Of a stretch of DNA of 64,000 bases, positions 13,549-20,294 are shown piece after piece (positions within the stretch are counted from its first letter, which is position 1; each line of letters opens with the position of its first letter). This DNA comes from Stigmatella erecta (GTDB taxonomy: Bacteria; Myxococcota; Myxococcia; Myxococcales; Myxococcaceae). The translations under genes and the position numbers were made by a program. Below the pieces are notes generated by a model. The model did not search any database. It was not told the origin of the DNA and was given only the letters and a program-made list of their open reading frames with translations. Location: positions 558,001 through 622,000 of the forward strand of contig NZ_FOIJ01000003.1 in the NCBI RefSeq assembly GCF_900111745.1, read 5' to 3'.

Positions 13549-15459
13549 TCACGGCTGGTAGTGGAGGATGGAGCCGCCCGCGCCGCCGATGCGCGGCTCC
13601 TTCCCCGCGCCCCACAGGGCGTTGAAGCGCCCGCCATAGGGCACGGTGGCGCCTGTCCAGGTCTTCCCGTCGTAGTGGTGCAGCTTGGTGAAGGCCTTGG
13701 GGATGCCCTGGATGAACTCCTCCCCCGCTTCGAGCACATAGATGTCCGAGGGCCCCGTGCCCCAGATGCCCACGAGCTCGCCCTTGGCGAAGGGCACCCA
13801 GGTCTCCCAGCGCTTGCCATCGAAGTGCCGGATGCTGCCCTGGGCGCCCACCACCCAGACATCGTCCGGCCCCGTGCCCCACACGTCCCGGAAGGCCTGC
13901 CGGGTGGGCTTCTCCCAGGAGACCACCTTCCAGGCGGTGCCCTCGTAGTGCAGGAGGGTGCCCAGCTCGCCCACGGCCCACACGTTCCGGGCGTCCGTTC
14001 CCCAGACCTGGGTCAGCGTCAGCGAGGTGGGGCTCTCGCGGACACTCCAGTCCTGGCCGTCATAATGAAGGATGCGCCCCTGCGTCCCCACGGCCCAGAT
14101 GTCCGCGGGGCCGGAGCCCCAGAGGCCCCGGAGCGTTGCCCCGCCGGGAACGTGCCGCCGGAGGGCCGCCGCCGTGCCATCGGAGCGGACAATCGTCTCC
14201 TCGTCGCCCACGGCCCAGACCTCTTCCGGGCTCGCGCCCCAGACGTCCTGCAGGGCCGCCCCCGTGCCGCTCGCCAGGGTGCTCCACTCCCCCTCGCGCC
14301 AGCGCAGCAGCATGCCCTGCTCCCCGCAGGACCAGGCCTCCGCCGCGCTCTGTTCCCAGCCGCCCAGGACGGTCTTGCTGGCTCCCTCGCGCATCGACAC
14401 CCAGCCGGTGTCCGTCTTGCGCACCACCTGGCCCGAGTCGCCCACCATCCAGAGCCCCGCCTCGCGCGAGGCCCACACGTGGGCGAGGTTCTCCGGCACG
14501 TCCAGGAAGTTCAGGGCAACGCCCTCGGGCCCAATGTGGAGGGCAGCCCCTTCCGGTCCAGCCACCCACGCTTCGTTCGCGCTCAGCGCGGCGATGCTGG
14601 TGAACCGCCGGCGCTCCTCGTGGACCACCTGCCATTCGCCCTTCTCGAAGCGGAGCACGCGCCAGATGCCCTCATCGACCTTCTCGTCCAGGGCCCACAG
14701 CACGCCCTCGGCGCCGCTCAGGCTCCAGACGCGATCGCTCGCGAAGCCCGGCTCGGGCACCCAGGCCTGGCCGTTCCAGCGCCACACGTTGCCCTCCGCG
14801 CTGATGACCCGGACATCGTCCGGCGCGAAGCCCCAGATGCCCGTGTAGTAGTGCGGCAGGGCATCCGGAGGCCGCGACCAGTCCGTGCCATTCCAGTGCA
14901 GCAGCGCCCCGCCGGAGCCCACCACCCAGATGTCCTCGGGACCGCTGCCCCAGACGGCCAGCAGCAGCTGCGTGAGCCCCGTGCCCACCGCCTGCCAGGC
15001 CTTGCCGTTCCAGCGCACCACGGCGCCCTCGCGGCCCACCGCCCAGACATCCTCCGGCCCCGTGCCGAACAGGGCCAGCAGCGACTGGTCCGTGGCCGAG
15101 CGGTGAATCTTCCAGTTCTGGCCGTCCCAGTGGGTCGCCATGCCCGGCGCCCCCACGGCCCAGACATCGTTGGGCGCGGAGGCCCACACGGCCCGGTAGT
15201 AGTGCGCGTGCGGGGTCGGGTTCTCCCAGCACCAGTTCTCGTCCAGGCAGAGAGTGGGCGCCACGGCCGGCGGCTGCTGGGACTGCTGGCAGGTGGCCCC
15301 GGGCTGAACGCACATCTGCGTCGCCTCGCAGCACGTCCACCCGTCCCCACAGGGACAGGACCGGTCGTCCAGGGACAGGGGGGCCACGCACGCGCCCAGG
15401 AGCAAGCCGAGCAGCGCGGCCAGGGAGACTTCGACACGGGGCGTCCACGCGGGGCTCAA
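13549..15459 (-). CDS. Repeat-rich lipoprotein (beta-propeller-like), last gene of the sigma/caspase operon
   Basis: This 636-residue protein starts at a TTG that overlaps the stop of the caspase gene (TTGA). A lipoprotein signal ends in the lipobox LLGAC near residue 24, followed by a Cys-rich stretch (SCPCGDGWTCCE). The rest is about 13 repeats of some 40 residues built on W-G-x-G-P-x-D-(V/I)-W-V-V-G...G...H-x-(D/N)-G-x-x-W. These resemble kelch/BNR/WD-like propeller blades and should form one or two propellers on the cell surface or in the periplasm. As the fourth gene of an overlapping operon it may be an interaction partner or target of the caspase; this is inference. Confidence 0.85.
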   Translation of the reverse strand: MSPAWTPRVEVSLAALLGLLLGACVAPLSLDDRSCPCGDGWTCCEATQMCVQPGATCQQSQQPPAVAPTLCLDENWCWENPTPHAHYYRAVWASAPNDVWAVGAPGMATHWDGQNWKIHRSATDQSLLALFGTGPEDVWAVGREGAVVRWNGKAWQAVGTGLTQLLLAVWGSGPEDIWVVGSGGALLHWNGTDWSRPPDALPHYYTGIWGFAPDDVRVISAEGNVWRWNGQAWVPEPGFASDRVWSLSGAEGVLWALDEKVDEGIWRVLRFEKGEWQVVHEERRRFTSIAALSANEAWVAGPEGAALHIGPEGVALNFLDVPENLAHVWASREAGLWMVGDSGQVVRKTDTGWVSMREGASKTVLGGWEQSAAEAWSCGEQGMLLRWREGEWSTLASGTGAALQDVWGASPEEVWAVGDEETIVRSDGTAAALRRHVPGGATLRGLWGSGPADIWAVGTQGRILHYDGQDWSVRESPTSLTLTQVWGTDARNVWAVGELGTLLHYEGTAWKVVSWEKPTRQAFRDVWGTGPDDVWVVGAQGSIRHFDGKRWETWVPFAKGELVGIWGTGPSDIYVLEAGEEFIQGIPKAFTKLHHYDGKTWTGATVPYGGRFNALWGAGKEPRIGGAGGSILHYQP

Positions 15460-16988
15460 AACCGTCCTCCCAGCTGCACCCCGGCCAGGTCCGGCCCGGC
15501 CACGGGGAGCGCCTCGGCCGGGGCCCCCGGCCACAAGAGCATTCCCAGCCCCGCCCCCGCCGCGAGGGCGCCCGCCACGTACAGGGTGGTGGAGCGGTGG
15601 TTGAGGGTGCGAATCCGCTGGTTCTGGCCCATGGCCTCGGCATGGGGCAGCGTGGCCCGGTTGCCGGAGCGGGCCTCCCGCGCGGACAGCGTCGTCCAGA
15701 GCCCTCCGCCCAGGCTCGCCCCCGCCAGCCCCAGCGCGCTCCAGCCCGCCACCCGGCGCCACGTGGGCCTCCGCCGGGAGGGCTCGGCCTCCAGGAGCAC
15801 CGGCGCCTGGAAGTCGTACGCGTCCACCGCCTGCCGGTCATACGGCAGCGAGAAGATGAGGCTGAACGCCTCGTGCTCCGCGCCGCGGTCCGCCGTCCGG
15901 GCCTGCTGCGGCGTGAGCGCGGCGAGCTGCACCACCTCCGGCATCGAGTCGATGCGGTACTCGCGGCCGTCCCCCATGCGCCGCAGGTAGAGCGGGCCGG
16001 TGCCAATGGGCCGCGCCAGCCACGTCCGCTGGCCGGAGGCATTGTGGAAGTCGGCCAGGCGCACCCCCCGGCTGTCCTCGAGCCGCAGGTGCTGGGCCTC
16101 CTGCCCATCCACCTCGATGCGGTGCTCCATCGCCTTGCCCAGCACCACCAGCCACGTCCCGTCCTTCGGCGGCCGGGCGTGGACCTGGGGGCGGAAGCGC
16201 TCGTTGGGAATGGCCGCATTCGCACGCTCCACGAAGGCGGCGATCTCCCGGTAGCTCACCCGTCCGTCGCCATCCACGTCCGCCGCGCCGTAGAGCCCCG
16301 AGCGGACCTCGTGGCTGAAGACGCCCGACTGGAAGGCCTCCCACTCGTGGCTGGCCCGCGCGCTGGAGGTCGACAGCAACAGCCCCACGCGCCCGTCTTC
16401 CGACAGCTGCGCCACCTCGCTGAACCCCTTCAGGGGCCGGCGCTGGCCGCCCGGGCCTCGCCCGTAGGCCAGGAAGTAAGAGGAGCACGCGTCCACGATG
16501 AGGTGGACCTGATCGGACTCCACGCGCTGGATGAGGCCCTTGGCCAGGTCCTCTCCGGTGAGCCGCCGGTCCTCCAGCGTCACGTAGCCCTGGCCGTTGT
16601 GCACGCTGCCGTGGCCCGCATAGATGAAGTAGACGACGGTGCCCAGGTTGCGCGCGCGCGCCTGGGCCACATCCCGCGTGAGCTGCTCCACCAGCCGCTG
16701 CCACTCGCCCCAGTTCGGCACGCTGGCTTCCGCCGCCGCCTGAGGGTGCAGCCGCTCCGTGTTCTGGTCCATGCGGGCCAGCAGGTACGTGCGCGCGCCG
16801 AGCAACCGGAACAGGTCCTGGTAGCGCGCGGCATCGTCGTCCGCGTAGCGCAGGGGAAGCTCGTCCGCGTCCACGCTCCGGTTCACCCCGACGATGAAGG
16901 CGAAGGTGGCCTGGGGGCGCTCCTCCGCCCCCGCGGCCCCCGCCACCAGCAGCACGGCAAGGCCCAGGGCCTCGCGCGTGAACCTCAC
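15456..16988 (-). CDS. Periplasmic/membrane caspase-family (C14) peptidase
   Basis: This 510-residue protein starts at a GTG overlapping the previous stop (GTGA). Residues 1-21 form a signal peptide (ALGLAVLLVAGAAGA). The caspase-fold domain begins FAFIVGVN, with the catalytic His at 126 in YFIYAGHGS and Cys at 168 in LIVDACSS, the expected dyad. A loop with DVDGDGRVSYRE (about residues 245-256) looks like an EF-hand calcium site. Two hydrophobic segments near the C-terminus (WSALGLAGASLGGGLW and LYVAGALAAGAGLGMLLW) could anchor it in the inner membrane. Its operon with a sigma factor and anti-sigma factor suggests signal-controlled proteolysis outside the cytoplasm. The substrate is unknown. 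Confidence 0.85.
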   Translation of the reverse strand: MRFTREALGLAVLLVAGAAGAEERPQATFAFIVGVNRSVDADELPLRYADDDAARYQDLFRLLGARTYLLARMDQNTERLHPQAAAEASVPNWGEWQRLVEQLTRDVAQARARNLGTVVYFIYAGHGSVHNGQGYVTLEDRRLTGEDLAKGLIQRVESDQVHLIVDACSSYFLAYGRGPGGQRRPLKGFSEVAQLSEDGRVGLLLSTSSARASHEWEAFQSGVFSHEVRSGLYGAADVDGDGRVSYREIAAFVERANAAIPNERFRPQVHARPPKDGTWLVVLGKAMEHRIEVDGQEAQHLRLEDSRGVRLADFHNASGQRTWLARPIGTGPLYLRRMGDGREYRIDSMPEVVQLAALTPQQARTADRGAEHEAFSLIFSLPYDRQAVDAYDFQAPVLLEAEPSRRRPTWRRVAGWSALGLAGASLGGGLWTTLSAREARSGNRATLPHAEAMGQNQRIRTLNHRSTTLYVAGALAAGAGLGMLLWPGAPAEALPVAGPDLAGVQLGGRF

Positions 16989-17752
16989 GGTTCCACCCGC
17001 ATGGGGAAGGAGGTGTTCTCCGCGCCCGGCAGGGGCAGCGGATCCGAAGGGGCGCGGCCCTCCATCAAGGCCTCGGCCTGCTTCACCGAGATCCGCTCGT
17101 CGGACAGCACGCCGTGGAGCACCAGCCGCTTTCCATCGAAGGTGTGCGAGATGGCCTCGGGCAGCTCGTGCAGCGCCATCCCCTCGAAGGCCTGCACTGC
17201 CAGCGGGTTCGTGTCCGGGTCGGACCAGCTCGGGTGGAACCAGTACACGTGGTTGTGCTCGTCCACCCCATAGATGAGGAGCCACTTCCGGGCGCGCGGG
17301 TTCTGATAGGCGAAGGCCAGCTCATCTCCCGGGCGAATCGCCTCGCCCACCGCTTCGGCGGCCAGGCCCGGCCGGACGCGGTAGACGCGCAGGGCCTCGG
17401 AGGAGGCCGTGGCGGCGCCTCCCCGCGCGGTGAACCCCTCCGTGTGGGCGAAGGGATCCGGCCGCGTCGCCATGACGCCCAGGACGAGCACGGCCAGCAC
17501 GCTGAACGCCGCGGCCGCGGGGGCCACCGGCAGGGGGGGCCGGACCAGTCCCAGGCCCTGCCCCAGGCGGTCCTGGTCTCCCCTGCTGGACTTCGGGTCC
17601 AGGCGCCGCAGCAGCAGGTGGCGCTCGTAGATGGACTTGCACGCGCCGCAGCCCGGCAGGTGCTCGCGCAGCGAGTGCTCTTCCCGAGGCTTCAGGCGGC
17701 GGGCAAAGTGGTTGTCGACGTGCCCGCGCATGGGGCAGCTCACGGTGTTCAT
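16985..17752 (-). CDS. Zinc-finger anti-sigma factor with DUF4384-like periplasmic domain
   Basis: This 255-residue protein begins CPMRGHVDNHFARRL and continues to HLPGCGACKSIYERH, the H-x3-C-x2-C pattern of zf-HC2 anti-sigma factors. One membrane segment follows (AAAAFSVLAVLVLGVMA, about residues 76-92). The C-terminal domain outside the cytoplasm has GDELAFAYQNPRARKWLLIYGVD and VYWFHPSW, resembling the DUF4384 domains that accompany caspase-like proteins. It would hold the neighbouring sigma factor inactive until an envelope signal arrives. Its ATG overlaps the sigma-factor stop and its stop overlaps the caspase GTG, so stoichiometric production is implied. Confidence 0.8.
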   Translation of the reverse strand: MNTVSCPMRGHVDNHFARRLKPREEHSLREHLPGCGACKSIYERHLLLRRLDPKSSRGDQDRLGQGLGLVRPPLPVAPAAAAFSVLAVLVLGVMATRPDPFAHTEGFTARGGAATASSEALRVYRVRPGLAAEAVGEAIRPGDELAFAYQNPRARKWLLIYGVDEHNHVYWFHPSWSDPDTNPLAVQAFEGMALHELPEAISHTFDGKRLVLHGVLSDERISVKQAEALMEGRAPSDPLPLPGAENTSFPMRVEP

Positions 17753-18345
17753 GGTGTGTCCCCTTCGCGCAGGAGAAAACGCTTGAGCAGCGCACGGATG
17801 CGCATCTCTTGATAGGCCAGCGTGGTCCGGTGGATGCCCAGCTCCCGGGCCGCATCTCGTTGAGGAAGTTGCCGCAGGAAGCGGACCTCGAAGACCCCGT
17901 GCCACTTGGCCGGCAGGCACTCGCGCTGGAAGCGCTCGATGAGCAGCCGCGCGTCGCTCTCCTCGGAGAACTCCCGCGTCTCGGTGGACTCCTGCATGCC
18001 GAGCCCTCCGGCCTGCTCCAGCGCGCCTTGCTCCCGCTGCTGGCGCCGCACGTAGTCGAGCGCGAGGTGGTAGGCCACCGTGGCCATCCAGGCCTTGAGG
18101 GAGCCGCCCCGGAAGCTGCGGCGCAGCTCCTCGCGGGAGATCAACCGGTAGAAGACCTCATGAATGACGGTCTCCTGGTCGGCCCCCGACAGCACCCGCC
18201 CCACGGCGCGCTGCACGGTGGGGTAGAGCTCCCGGTAACACCGCTCCAGCACCGGGCGGTTGCCGGCGTGGAACCCTGTCAGCCAGAGCTCCTCGCGTTC
18301 CGCGCCCAGGCCGGAATAGAGCGCATTGTCGGTTTCCACCCGCAC
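17749..18345 (-). CDS. ECF-type RNA polymerase sigma factor
   Basis: This 198-residue protein has a sigma-2 region (RCYRELYPTVQRAVG, then ETVIHEVFYRLI and SLKAWMATVAYHLALDYVRR) and a sigma-4 helix-turn-helix (LRQLPQRDAARELGIHRTTLAYQEMRIRALLKR). The GTG at 18345 is preceded by GGGGAGG at a suitable spacing; an in-frame ATG lies at 18411. It heads a four-gene unit in which every junction is a 4-bp stop/start overlap. It is expected to be held by the zinc-finger protein encoded next and to direct RNA polymerase to its own promoter and a small regulon. No clear promoter consensus was identified upstream. Confidence 0.8.
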   Translation of the reverse strand: MRVETDNALYSGLGAEREELWLTGFHAGNRPVLERCYRELYPTVQRAVGRVLSGADQETVIHEVFYRLISREELRRSFRGGSLKAWMATVAYHLALDYVRRQQREQGALEQAGGLGMQESTETREFSEESDARLLIERFQRECLPAKWHGVFEVRFLRQLPQRDAARELGIHRTTLAYQEMRIRALLKRFLLREGDTP

Positions 18346-18623
18346 GCCCACGCCTCCCCATGTTGCTTGCAAGGTGGGATTTAGGGGCGGCCCTCCGCAC
18401 GGCAACCCCACCCCTCCCCTCTTCCGGGAAAAAGGTGTTCAGCGCCGGACGCGAAGCGGCTGGCACGAAAAAGAAAAAAAGATTCGTCCAGGTTTCCCTA
18501 CCCGAGCGCTTCACCCCTGAAAGCCAAGCAAGGCAACCTCAGTGGGGGACATCGGTGAGAACGGCGGCGGCGGTGGGTGGGGCGGAGATGGGGCGGGGGT
18601 GGGGCGGGCGGAGCCAGGAGCGC

Positions 18624-20294
18624 ATGGTCTTCTGGATCGCGGTGGTGGGGACGGTGCTGCTGGGAGCCCTCGGCACCGGGTGTGGACAGGAGGAGGCCGG
18701 GGGGGCGCCGGCACCCGATCCGAAGAACGGGCAGTTCGCGTTCCCGGCGCTGCAGACGGAGGTTCCGCTCTATGAGCTGACCATCCCCGCCGAGACGATG
18801 GCGAAGTTCGAGGCCAACCCCTACGAGGACGAGCACCCGGCCACCTTCGTCTTCGAGGGCAAGAGCTACACGGTGGGGGTGCGGCTGCGCGGCTCCAGCT
18901 CCCGCTTCTTCCCGAAGAAGAGCTGGCGCATCGAGTTTCCCAAGGGCACGGAGTTCGACGGGCGGCGCAAACACAACCTGGTCGCGGAGTTCCAGGACCG
19001 GACGATGATGGCGGAGAAGCTCGCCTATGACTTGATGCTCGCCATGGGCCTGCCCGCGCCCGTCACGAAATACGTGCGGCTGTCCATCAACGGCCAGTAC
19101 CAGGGCGTCTACCTGGACATCGAGCGCGTGGACAACAGCTTCGCCAAGGCCCATGGCTTCGTGGATCCGGACCCCACCATCTACCGGTGCGGCGCCAAGG
19201 ACTGCGAGATGAAGCTGTGGCGCACCGACTACCAGCAGGACTGGCAGAAGGAGACGAACGAGGAGAAGGAGCCGGGCAAGAACGACATCCGCACGCTGAT
19301 GGCCGTCATCAACCGCGCGCCCGAGCCGGACTTCGCACAGATGCTGGGCGAGAACCTCGAGGTGGAGCGCTACCTGCGCACCCTGGCCGCCGAGGTGCTC
19401 ATCTCCAACAACATCACGGAGGACTCGCAGAGCTACCTCATCCACGACCGGACGACGTACAAGTGGACCTATGTGGCGTGGGACCTGAACAACGCCGATT
19501 CGCGCTGGTGGCCCACGTATGGCCTGGGCATGAAGCCGGTGGCCAACCACCCGCTGTTCCCCTTCAGCCTGGCGGACTCCTGGGTGGAGAAGATGTACCT
19601 GAAGCGCAACACGCGGCCGGACTTCCTGCCCACCTTCTCCAACCTCACCACGCGCATCCTCTACAACCCCGAGCTCCGGGAGCAGCTGTTCGCGGTGGTG
19701 GAGAAGAGCCTCGCCGAGCTGTTCGATCCCGCCGTCATCGAGCCCCGGCTGGACGCGATGCACCAGCTCATCGCCCCGTACATGGACGCCGACCCGTACC
19801 TGCTGCTCGATGACGTGGGCAAGCCGGACCCGGACGGGCTGGCGAAGTTCCGCGAGGGGCTGCCCTTCCTCAAGGCCTACGCGAAGCAGCGGACGGACTT
19901 CGTGCGCCGCGAGCTGGAGCGCTTCCGCGCCCCGCCGTCCACCCTGCGCCTCCAGGCCGTGAGCCCCAGCGAGGGCTGGGTGGAGCTGCACAACCCGGCC
20001 GGCCAGGCGCTCTCCACGGCGGGGCTCGTGCTGACCACGGACCTGCGGCGCACGATTCCCACGCTGCGCCAGCCCGGCACCAGCACCGTGCTGCCCGAGC
20101 GCCGGGTGCCCCCGAACGGCACCGTGCGCTTCTCTCGCGCGGAGCTGGGCTTCACCCTGCCGCCCGAGGGCGAGCTGGGCCTCTTCGACGGCGTCTCCGT
20201 GGTGGGCGTGAAGGACGTCTTCTTCTACGCGGCCCTCCCCTCGGGTGGCACCTACGCCCGCGGGAGTGACGGCTCCCACTGGGAAGCCCGCTGA
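18624..20294 (+). CDS. CotH-family lipoprotein with C-terminal lamin-tail-like domain
   Basis: This 556-residue protein has a lipoprotein signal (FWIAVVGTVLLGALGTGC, lipobox LGTGC). The CotH kinase-like domain is clear: VRLRGSSSRFFPKKSWRIEF, then DRTMMAEKLAYDLM, NGQYQGVYLDIERVDNSF and TYVAWDLNNADSRW, the DLN-type metal-binding block. The last 110 residues (LRLQAVSPSEGWVELHNPAG and onwards) look like a lamin-tail domain. CotH proteins are atypical kinases that phosphorylate secreted or surface proteins, so this one probably works in the periplasm or on the surface. ATG 18624 is chosen for the signal peptide; ATG 18588 is in frame. Its upstream region is shared with the divergent sigma-factor operon. 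Confidence 0.85.
   Translation: MVFWIAVVGTVLLGALGTGCGQEEAGGAPAPDPKNGQFAFPALQTEVPLYELTIPAETMAKFEANPYEDEHPATFVFEGKSYTVGVRLRGSSSRFFPKKSWRIEFPKGTEFDGRRKHNLVAEFQDRTMMAEKLAYDLMLAMGLPAPVTKYVRLSINGQYQGVYLDIERVDNSFAKAHGFVDPDPTIYRCGAKDCEMKLWRTDYQQDWQKETNEEKEPGKNDIRTLMAVINRAPEPDFAQMLGENLEVERYLRTLAAEVLISNNITEDSQSYLIHDRTTYKWTYVAWDLNNADSRWWPTYGLGMKPVANHPLFPFSLADSWVEKMYLKRNTRPDFLPTFSNLTTRILYNPELREQLFAVVEKSLAELFDPAVIEPRLDAMHQLIAPYMDADPYLLLDDVGKPDPDGLAKFREGLPFLKAYAKQRTDFVRRELERFRAPPSTLRLQAVSPSEGWVELHNPAGQALSTAGLVLTTDLRRTIPTLRQPGTSTVLPERRVPPNGTVRFSRAELGFTLPPEGELGLFDGVSVVGVKDVFFYAALPSGGTYARGSDGSHWEAR

Follow-up and report, generated by a model that had tools for sequence, protein, structure and literature searches.

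In a 2012 survey of bacterial metacaspases, operons joining a sigma-70 gene to a metacaspase gene were reported for four of the five metacaspases of Myxococcus xanthus, as well as in Anaeromyxobacter, Haliangium, Sorangium, Ralstonia and Fibrobacter; such operons were classed under DNA interaction and transcription, and the discussion favoured a role in cell death (Asplund-Samuelsson et al., PMC3501461). A second precedent is the caspase-like CHAT protease Csx29, which cuts Csx30 and relieves inhibition of an extracytoplasmic function (ECF) sigma factor (PMC10028731), and genes for caspase-like (CHAT) domains are also conserved near the ECF54 sigma factors (PMC8999054). Here, a four-gene operon is described in a 64,000-nt stretch of Stigmatella erecta DNA (the window), encoding an ECF-like sigma factor, a membrane anti-sigma factor, an extracytoplasmic caspase and a propeller lipoprotein. 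The reading that we favour, at a rough probability of 0.6, is that the caspase serves as the site-1 protease of its own anti-sigma factor in a self-contained surface-to-gene switch.

Like the operons of the 2012 survey, this one holds a caspase gene and a sigma-70 gene together, but the main text of the survey contains no anti-sigma factor (0 occurrences), cleavage site, promoter, lipoprotein family or mechanism (PMC3501461). Sigma/metacaspase operons themselves are thus known, and what is new is the anti-sigma factor, the cleavage motif, the promoter and the lipoprotein. As in the Csx29/Csx30/CASP-sigma system, a caspase-fold protease, an ECF sigma inhibitor and a sigma factor are encoded together, and proteolysis, which relieves inhibition there (PMC10028731), would do the same here. 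However, Csx29 is a cytoplasmic, RNA-activated CHAT-TPR protein of CRISPR type III-E, whereas the Stigmatella caspase is of the C14 type, exported and, as far as its model indicates, membrane-anchored; the Stigmatella anti-sigma factor, unlike Csx30, spans the membrane and is of an unrelated type. No TPR or CHAT family matched the caspase in Pfam and NCBIfam scans, the operon is flanked by ileS and a CotH gene, and the locus does not show the TPR-CHAT protease and type III-E Cas7-11 effector of the Csx29/Csx30/CASP-sigma class. With RseA/sigma-E and RsiW/sigma-W the locus shares a membrane anti-sigma factor with an N-terminal anti-sigma domain and a presumed succession of site-1 and site-2 cuts, whereas the site-1 protease is DegS (a serine protease) or another enzyme in those systems and, in our proposal, an operon-encoded caspase. 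A search of the literature joining caspases and anti-sigma factors, covering mostly non-subscription papers without bioRxiv, yielded CRISPR- and CHAT-related cases as the only relevant ones. Judged from its sequence, the locus is likely to represent a case of anti-sigma proteolysis in which an exported C14 caspase acts as the site-1 protease.

All four genes lie on the minus strand, to which coordinates refer unless stated otherwise, in the order sigma factor (17749..18345; 198 amino acids from a GTG start, with an alternative upstream GTG possible at 18351), anti-sigma factor (16985..17752; 255 amino acids), caspase (15456..16988; 510 amino acids) and lipoprotein (13549..15459; 636 amino acids from a TTG start). 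The three junctions are 4-bp overlaps, ATGA, GTGA and TTGA, and re-checking bore out the open reading frames, their coordinates and all three overlaps as given by a first-pass annotation of this DNA. When 96 Myxococcaceae genomes were searched and genes were called in the recovered regions, the sigma/anti-sigma/caspase trio proved syntenic in 20 of them, the window's own included, spread over 5 genera; the synteny asked for by that annotation is thereby borne out for these three genes. The sigma/anti-sigma overlap is kept at 19/20 orthologous loci and the anti-sigma/caspase overlap at 20/20, and this conservation exceeds chance. The caspase/lipoprotein overlap is confined to 7 loci, which belong to the window's genus and a neighbouring one; the notion that the fourth gene is always overlap-coupled was rejected, as elsewhere its start lies beyond the end of the caspase gene, in most cases behind a promoter element of its own. 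The earlier contention that such coupling implies a single machine is strongly supported for the sigma factor, the membrane anti-sigma factor and the extracytoplasmic caspase, but the overlap coupling of the fourth gene is lineage-specific.

Identification of the first gene product as an ECF-like sigma factor, proposed in the first-pass annotation, is upheld by matches above cut-off to Pfam Sigma70_r2 (30.7 bits; cut-off 24) and to NCBIfam sigma70-ECF (47.9 bits; cut-off 42.9), the latter covering residues 33-190; the Pfam match to region 4 is below threshold. The anti-sigma factor consists of an HxxxCxxC anti-sigma domain, one transmembrane helix (approximately residues 76-96), a disordered linker and a periplasmic DUF4384-like beta-sandwich (residues 121-253; 16994..17392). 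Its HxxxCxxC signature, a motif often carried by class I anti-sigma domains (ASDI) (PMC7406223), is formed by H31, C35 and C38, which are invariant among orthologues, and the predicted model places helices at residues 9-66. Confidence in that model, expressed as the predicted local distance difference test score (pLDDT), is >90 at residues 121-253 and <50 at 102-117. In a profile comparison with DUF4384-type anti-sigma factors, a set picked around Pfam DUF4384 hits, the window protein scored E = 2.3e-18 with its R110-G111 region aligned onto their KG; structural matches to the periplasmic domain were weak. The architecture suggested from the sequence at first pass, zf-HC2 followed by a transmembrane segment and a DUF4384-like domain, therefore holds for the conserved HxxxCxxC signature and the DUF4384-like domain, whereas Pfam zf-HC2 itself scores 14.1 bits, below its cut-off of 22.2.

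The caspase carries a signal peptide (by eye), a C14 domain, an EF-hand loop, a beta domain and a C-terminal two-helix hairpin. The match to Peptidase_C14 is barely above cut-off (21.7 against 21.4 bits). The predicted fold, with a core pLDDT >90, matches legumain, plant metacaspases, a yeast metacaspase and MALT1 at Z 17-19; this fold search was needed to recover the caspase domain, as comparison of the caspase profile with the sequences of solved structures matched EF-hands and no caspase domain. Metacaspases and MALT1 are Arg/Lys-specific. The catalytic dyad is intact and, in keeping with the residues named at first pass, consists of His126 (codon at 16611..16613) and Cys168 (codon at 16485..16487), which occupy invariant columns across 30 aligned relatives, so that conservation of the dyad among homologues, on which the earlier proposal had been staked, is borne out. 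D50-D52 and D166, the latter two residues before the catalytic cysteine, are also invariant, which is consistent with a basic S1 pocket; we take these residues, as in structures of MALT1 and metacaspases, to form an Arg/Lys-specific pocket. The EF-hand-type calcium loop DVDGDGRVSYRE (residues 237-248; 16245..16280) scores below threshold with Pfam EF-hand, but its profile matches solved EF-hand proteins and D237, Y246 and E248 are invariant. The C-terminal hairpin (residues 409-485; 15534..15764), with modelled helices at residues 409-441 and 449-485, is by model and hydrophobicity a probable inner-membrane anchor.

Two further features of the caspase were observed. Residues 174-190 (16419-16469) form a basic, poorly ordered loop, GRGPGGQRRPLKG, that joins the halves of the caspase domain and includes a nearly invariant R177; it is a possible autoprocessing site. 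The C-terminus (15456-15500) bears a short GxxLxGxF/W motif with a terminal aromatic residue, resembling an outer-membrane beta-signal, and this ending is conserved across orthologues and several paralogues (loci L035-L053, L060, L063, L073 and L109).

The candidate substrate site lies in the linker between the transmembrane helix and the periplasmic domain of the anti-sigma factor, where an FTARG motif (residues 107-111; 17420..17434) contains the proposed scissile bond R110/G111. The linker is variable among orthologues save for F107, T108, R110 and G111, of which F107 and R110 are invariant in 16 orthologues. Among 16 distant caspase-linked anti-sigma factors the sole invariant column is the glycine corresponding to G111, preceded in every case by Arg or Lys. 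Basic residues (Arg/Lys) are also where orthocaspases cut, on the C-terminal side (PMC6426788), and for this reason the [R/K]-Gly motif looks like a cleavage site of the partner caspase. With caspase-linked proteins clustered at 50% identity, an [RK]G pair 5-35 residues past the transmembrane segment is present in 28/29 caspase-linked transmembrane proteins, compared with 0/14 anti-sigma families without a caspase, drawn from Myxococcaceae genomes including the window's own (Fisher p ~2e-10), and 21/78 generic single-transmembrane proteins (Fisher p ~2e-11), although these p values overstate the strength of the association because the data that revealed the motif overlap with those in which it was counted. 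The one caspase-linked exception, at locus L141, is not anti-sigma-like in appearance. Anti-sigma factors transcribed away from their caspase bear the same basic site (EWQAR, FQARG).

That the basic pair might instead be structural, marking the start of the periplasmic domain while the caspase signals as a sensor or scaffold without cutting the anti-sigma factor, would suit several K-type proteins in which KG stands just 1-3 residues ahead of the first beta-strand. However, the gap between motif and strand is 7-17 residues in the window protein and many others, the linker is disordered in the model (the FTARG site falls within a stretch of pLDDT <50 and the domain that follows is >90), and the catalytic dyad is invariant, which together leave this explanation a slim chance, the slimmest of those considered. 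The motif lies at a varying distance from both the transmembrane segment and the beta-sandwich; as its distance to the first strand ranges from ~1 to 17 residues, the simpler view of [RK]G as no more than the beginning of the DUF4384 fold was set aside. On the caspase tree, the P1 residue is Lys in 10/11 rows of one large clade and Arg in 35/40 of the other, with 5 changes compared with 13.2 in shuffles.

A different protease could be responsible for the cut. In the textbook route, RseA-like anti-sigma factors are cleaved by a DegS-type protease (cited in PMC10028731), and the caspase gene lies within the sigma-controlled operon, as would be expected if an HtrA/DegS-type site-1 protease cut the linker and the caspase were a sigma-regulated output acting on other proteins, for example in lipoprotein shedding. 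Set against this are the findings that every motif-bearing anti-sigma factor found adjoins a caspase, that the 14 sampled Myxococcaceae anti-sigma families lack the motif, and that all seven DUF4384 hits in sigma modules adjoin a caspase; we regard cleavage by another envelope protease as unlikely, if still to be reckoned with.

Modules of this type form a family. Further sigma/anti-sigma/caspase modules are present in the same genome on contigs C1, C3 and C6, with a divergent version on C12, and all five caspases found in the genome sit in such modules. A sigma gene lies upstream of 27/28 non-redundant caspase-linked membrane genes from 62 further loci together with the paralogous loci, and 7/8 Pfam DUF4384 hits in four genomes belong to sigma/anti-sigma/caspase modules. 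The C12 version (L055:805-5507) is rearranged: its sigma and anti-sigma (EWQAR) genes point away from the caspase gene, and behind the latter come genes for a small protein that ends in a two-transmembrane segment and for an Ig-domain protein. Some paralogous caspases (L056, L057 and L058 of the same genome, and L072) appear by eye to carry a C-terminal outer-membrane beta-barrel in place of the hairpin, without confirmation from Pfam. In addition, locus L132, from a record titled Comamonas sp. KCTC 72670 (BNCN01000017.1), is nearly gene-for-gene identical to a Myxococcus xanthus locus (L131), and the record is probably misnamed or contaminated.

The first-pass annotation had read the operon as an envelope-stress or programmed-death switch, which may be restated as a sigma factor that raises the level of a caspase acting from the periplasm to kill its own cell or an adjacent one. 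Developmental lysis does occur in myxobacteria, and the 2012 survey favoured death or fratricide (PMC3501461). Nevertheless, no death effector was found beside the module, the four operon proteins had no match in PADLOC, the few promoter sites described below point to lipoprotein genes and a methyltransferase gene and not to lytic genes, and, because all five caspases found in the genome belong to sigma/anti-sigma modules, signalling fits better than death. The programmed-death reading is unsupported here and improbable. The same annotation remarked on the lack of a nearby gasdermin gene; the adjacent genes are ileS and the CotH gene, and no search aimed at gasdermin was made. Nothing points to the caspase being an effector set free by a sensor, as that annotation had further supposed; events probably run in another order, with the caspase upstream, removing a brake.

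A promoter element, TTCGTCCA-N16-CGTT, was spotted by aligning sequences upstream of the sigma gene and followed genome-wide by exact-pattern scans. At the Myxococcus- and Archangium-type loci (inferred genus labels), it is present exactly before the sigma gene in 12/12 and before the lipoprotein gene in 11/12, and the spacers of the sigma-side and lipoprotein-side elements are unrelated in sequence. In 8/9 Myxococcus-type genomes (9-13 Mb) the exact element occurs in two copies, both at the operon locus, and the ninth has three copies, one of them elsewhere; a reversed control pattern occurs 0-2 times. In the window, a predicted sigma site with CGCT at the -10 position, TTCGTCCA-N16-CGCT (18483..18510, plus strand), faces the divergent neighbour and is kept throughout the window's genus and in a neighbouring one. 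It lies ~114 bp before the predicted start of a CotH-kinase-like lipoprotein gene (18624..20294, plus strand; Pfam CotH 228.6 bits), which is the divergent neighbour in 7 genomes and may be a target of the operon sigma factor in the window's genus. Two more genus-conserved copies of the element in the same genome, C1:554824 (L225) and C12:182016 (L246), precede a propeller-repeat lipoprotein gene and a class I methyltransferase gene, respectively.

The lipoprotein of the window has the lipobox LGAC followed by a Cys-rich CPCxxGWTCC N-terminus and 13-14 propeller repeats by eye, in agreement with the earlier estimate of about 13; a simple pattern detects 7, and the repeats are consistent with two seven-bladed propellers. 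In the readable orthologous loci (the gene is unreadable in one genome, at L049) the fourth gene has a constant N-terminus, comprising the lipobox and CPCxxGWTCC...C with one W-to-F change, and an ectodomain that varies by lineage: the window's genus has WD-like propeller repeats, Myxococcus-type genomes have four fn3 domains and FG-GAP repeats, and Archangium-type genomes have Big_6 Ig domains. The constant N-terminus may serve in docking, and the variable ectodomain may be the environment-facing piece. Because most orthologues outside the window's genus have their own sigma-type promoter, the lipoprotein probably counts, in most lineages, among the outputs of the switch, and a sensing role may come in addition.

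In the mechanism that we favour, in which the caspase is the site-1 protease, the anti-sigma factor would tether the sigma factor to the inner membrane. After export to the periplasm through its signal peptide, the caspase would be anchored in the inner membrane by the hairpin at its C-terminus, which would bring it within reach of the short disordered linker. Its activation might be brought about by calcium through the EF-hand loop, or alternatively by a signal that the lipoprotein conveys or the anti-sigma beta-sandwich perceives. The activated caspase would then cut behind R110, the conserved basic residue of FTARG; it is from the conserved Arg/Lys-Gly site in the linker that we infer both this cleavage and its direction, with the caspase placed upstream as the brake-removing protease. 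A site-2 protease would complete cleavage and free the sigma factor, and M50 site-2 protease genes are present in the genome (best E = 3e-68). The freed sigma factor would activate its own operon together with genes for surface lipoproteins, presumably by reading TTCGTCCA-N16-CG(T/C)T.

Several points weigh against this proposal. In the window's genus and its neighbour, the element faces the CotH gene and not the sigma operon, and has a weaker -10, so that sigma self-activation in the window's genus is not supported by the promoter. The [RK]G motif was counted in the same data that had yielded it, and in the divergent subfamily the Arg is often followed by Ser, Ala or Lys instead of Gly. Clustering of the P1 residue on the caspase tree could stem from co-inheritance of the anti-sigma and caspase genes, in which case motif type would track the caspase tree even without a protease-substrate link, and another periplasmic protease could use the same linker site.

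Few substrates of bacterial caspases are known, and these proteins are often discussed as cell-death agents. The operon offers, for one of them, a candidate substrate, a candidate bond (R110/G111) and a candidate readout (the TTCGTCCA promoter), which makes the question testable. If the proposal is true, it would define a caspase-type branch of anti-sigma proteolysis that operates outside the cytoplasm and has its parallel in the CRISPR-linked Csx29 system. More tentatively, and at slightly worse than even odds, myxobacterial caspases as a class may be dedicated activators of sigma factors that act from outside the cytoplasm, each matched to one anti-sigma factor in which its cut site lies. 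The sigma factor released in the four-gene version would be all but private, its targets being its own operon and an exchangeable surface lipoprotein of the propeller or Ig kind. With a promoter so nearly private to its sigma factor, the module could serve as a compact and portable gene switch; on the class-wide reading, bacterial caspases of this kind would be signalling proteases and not death proteases.

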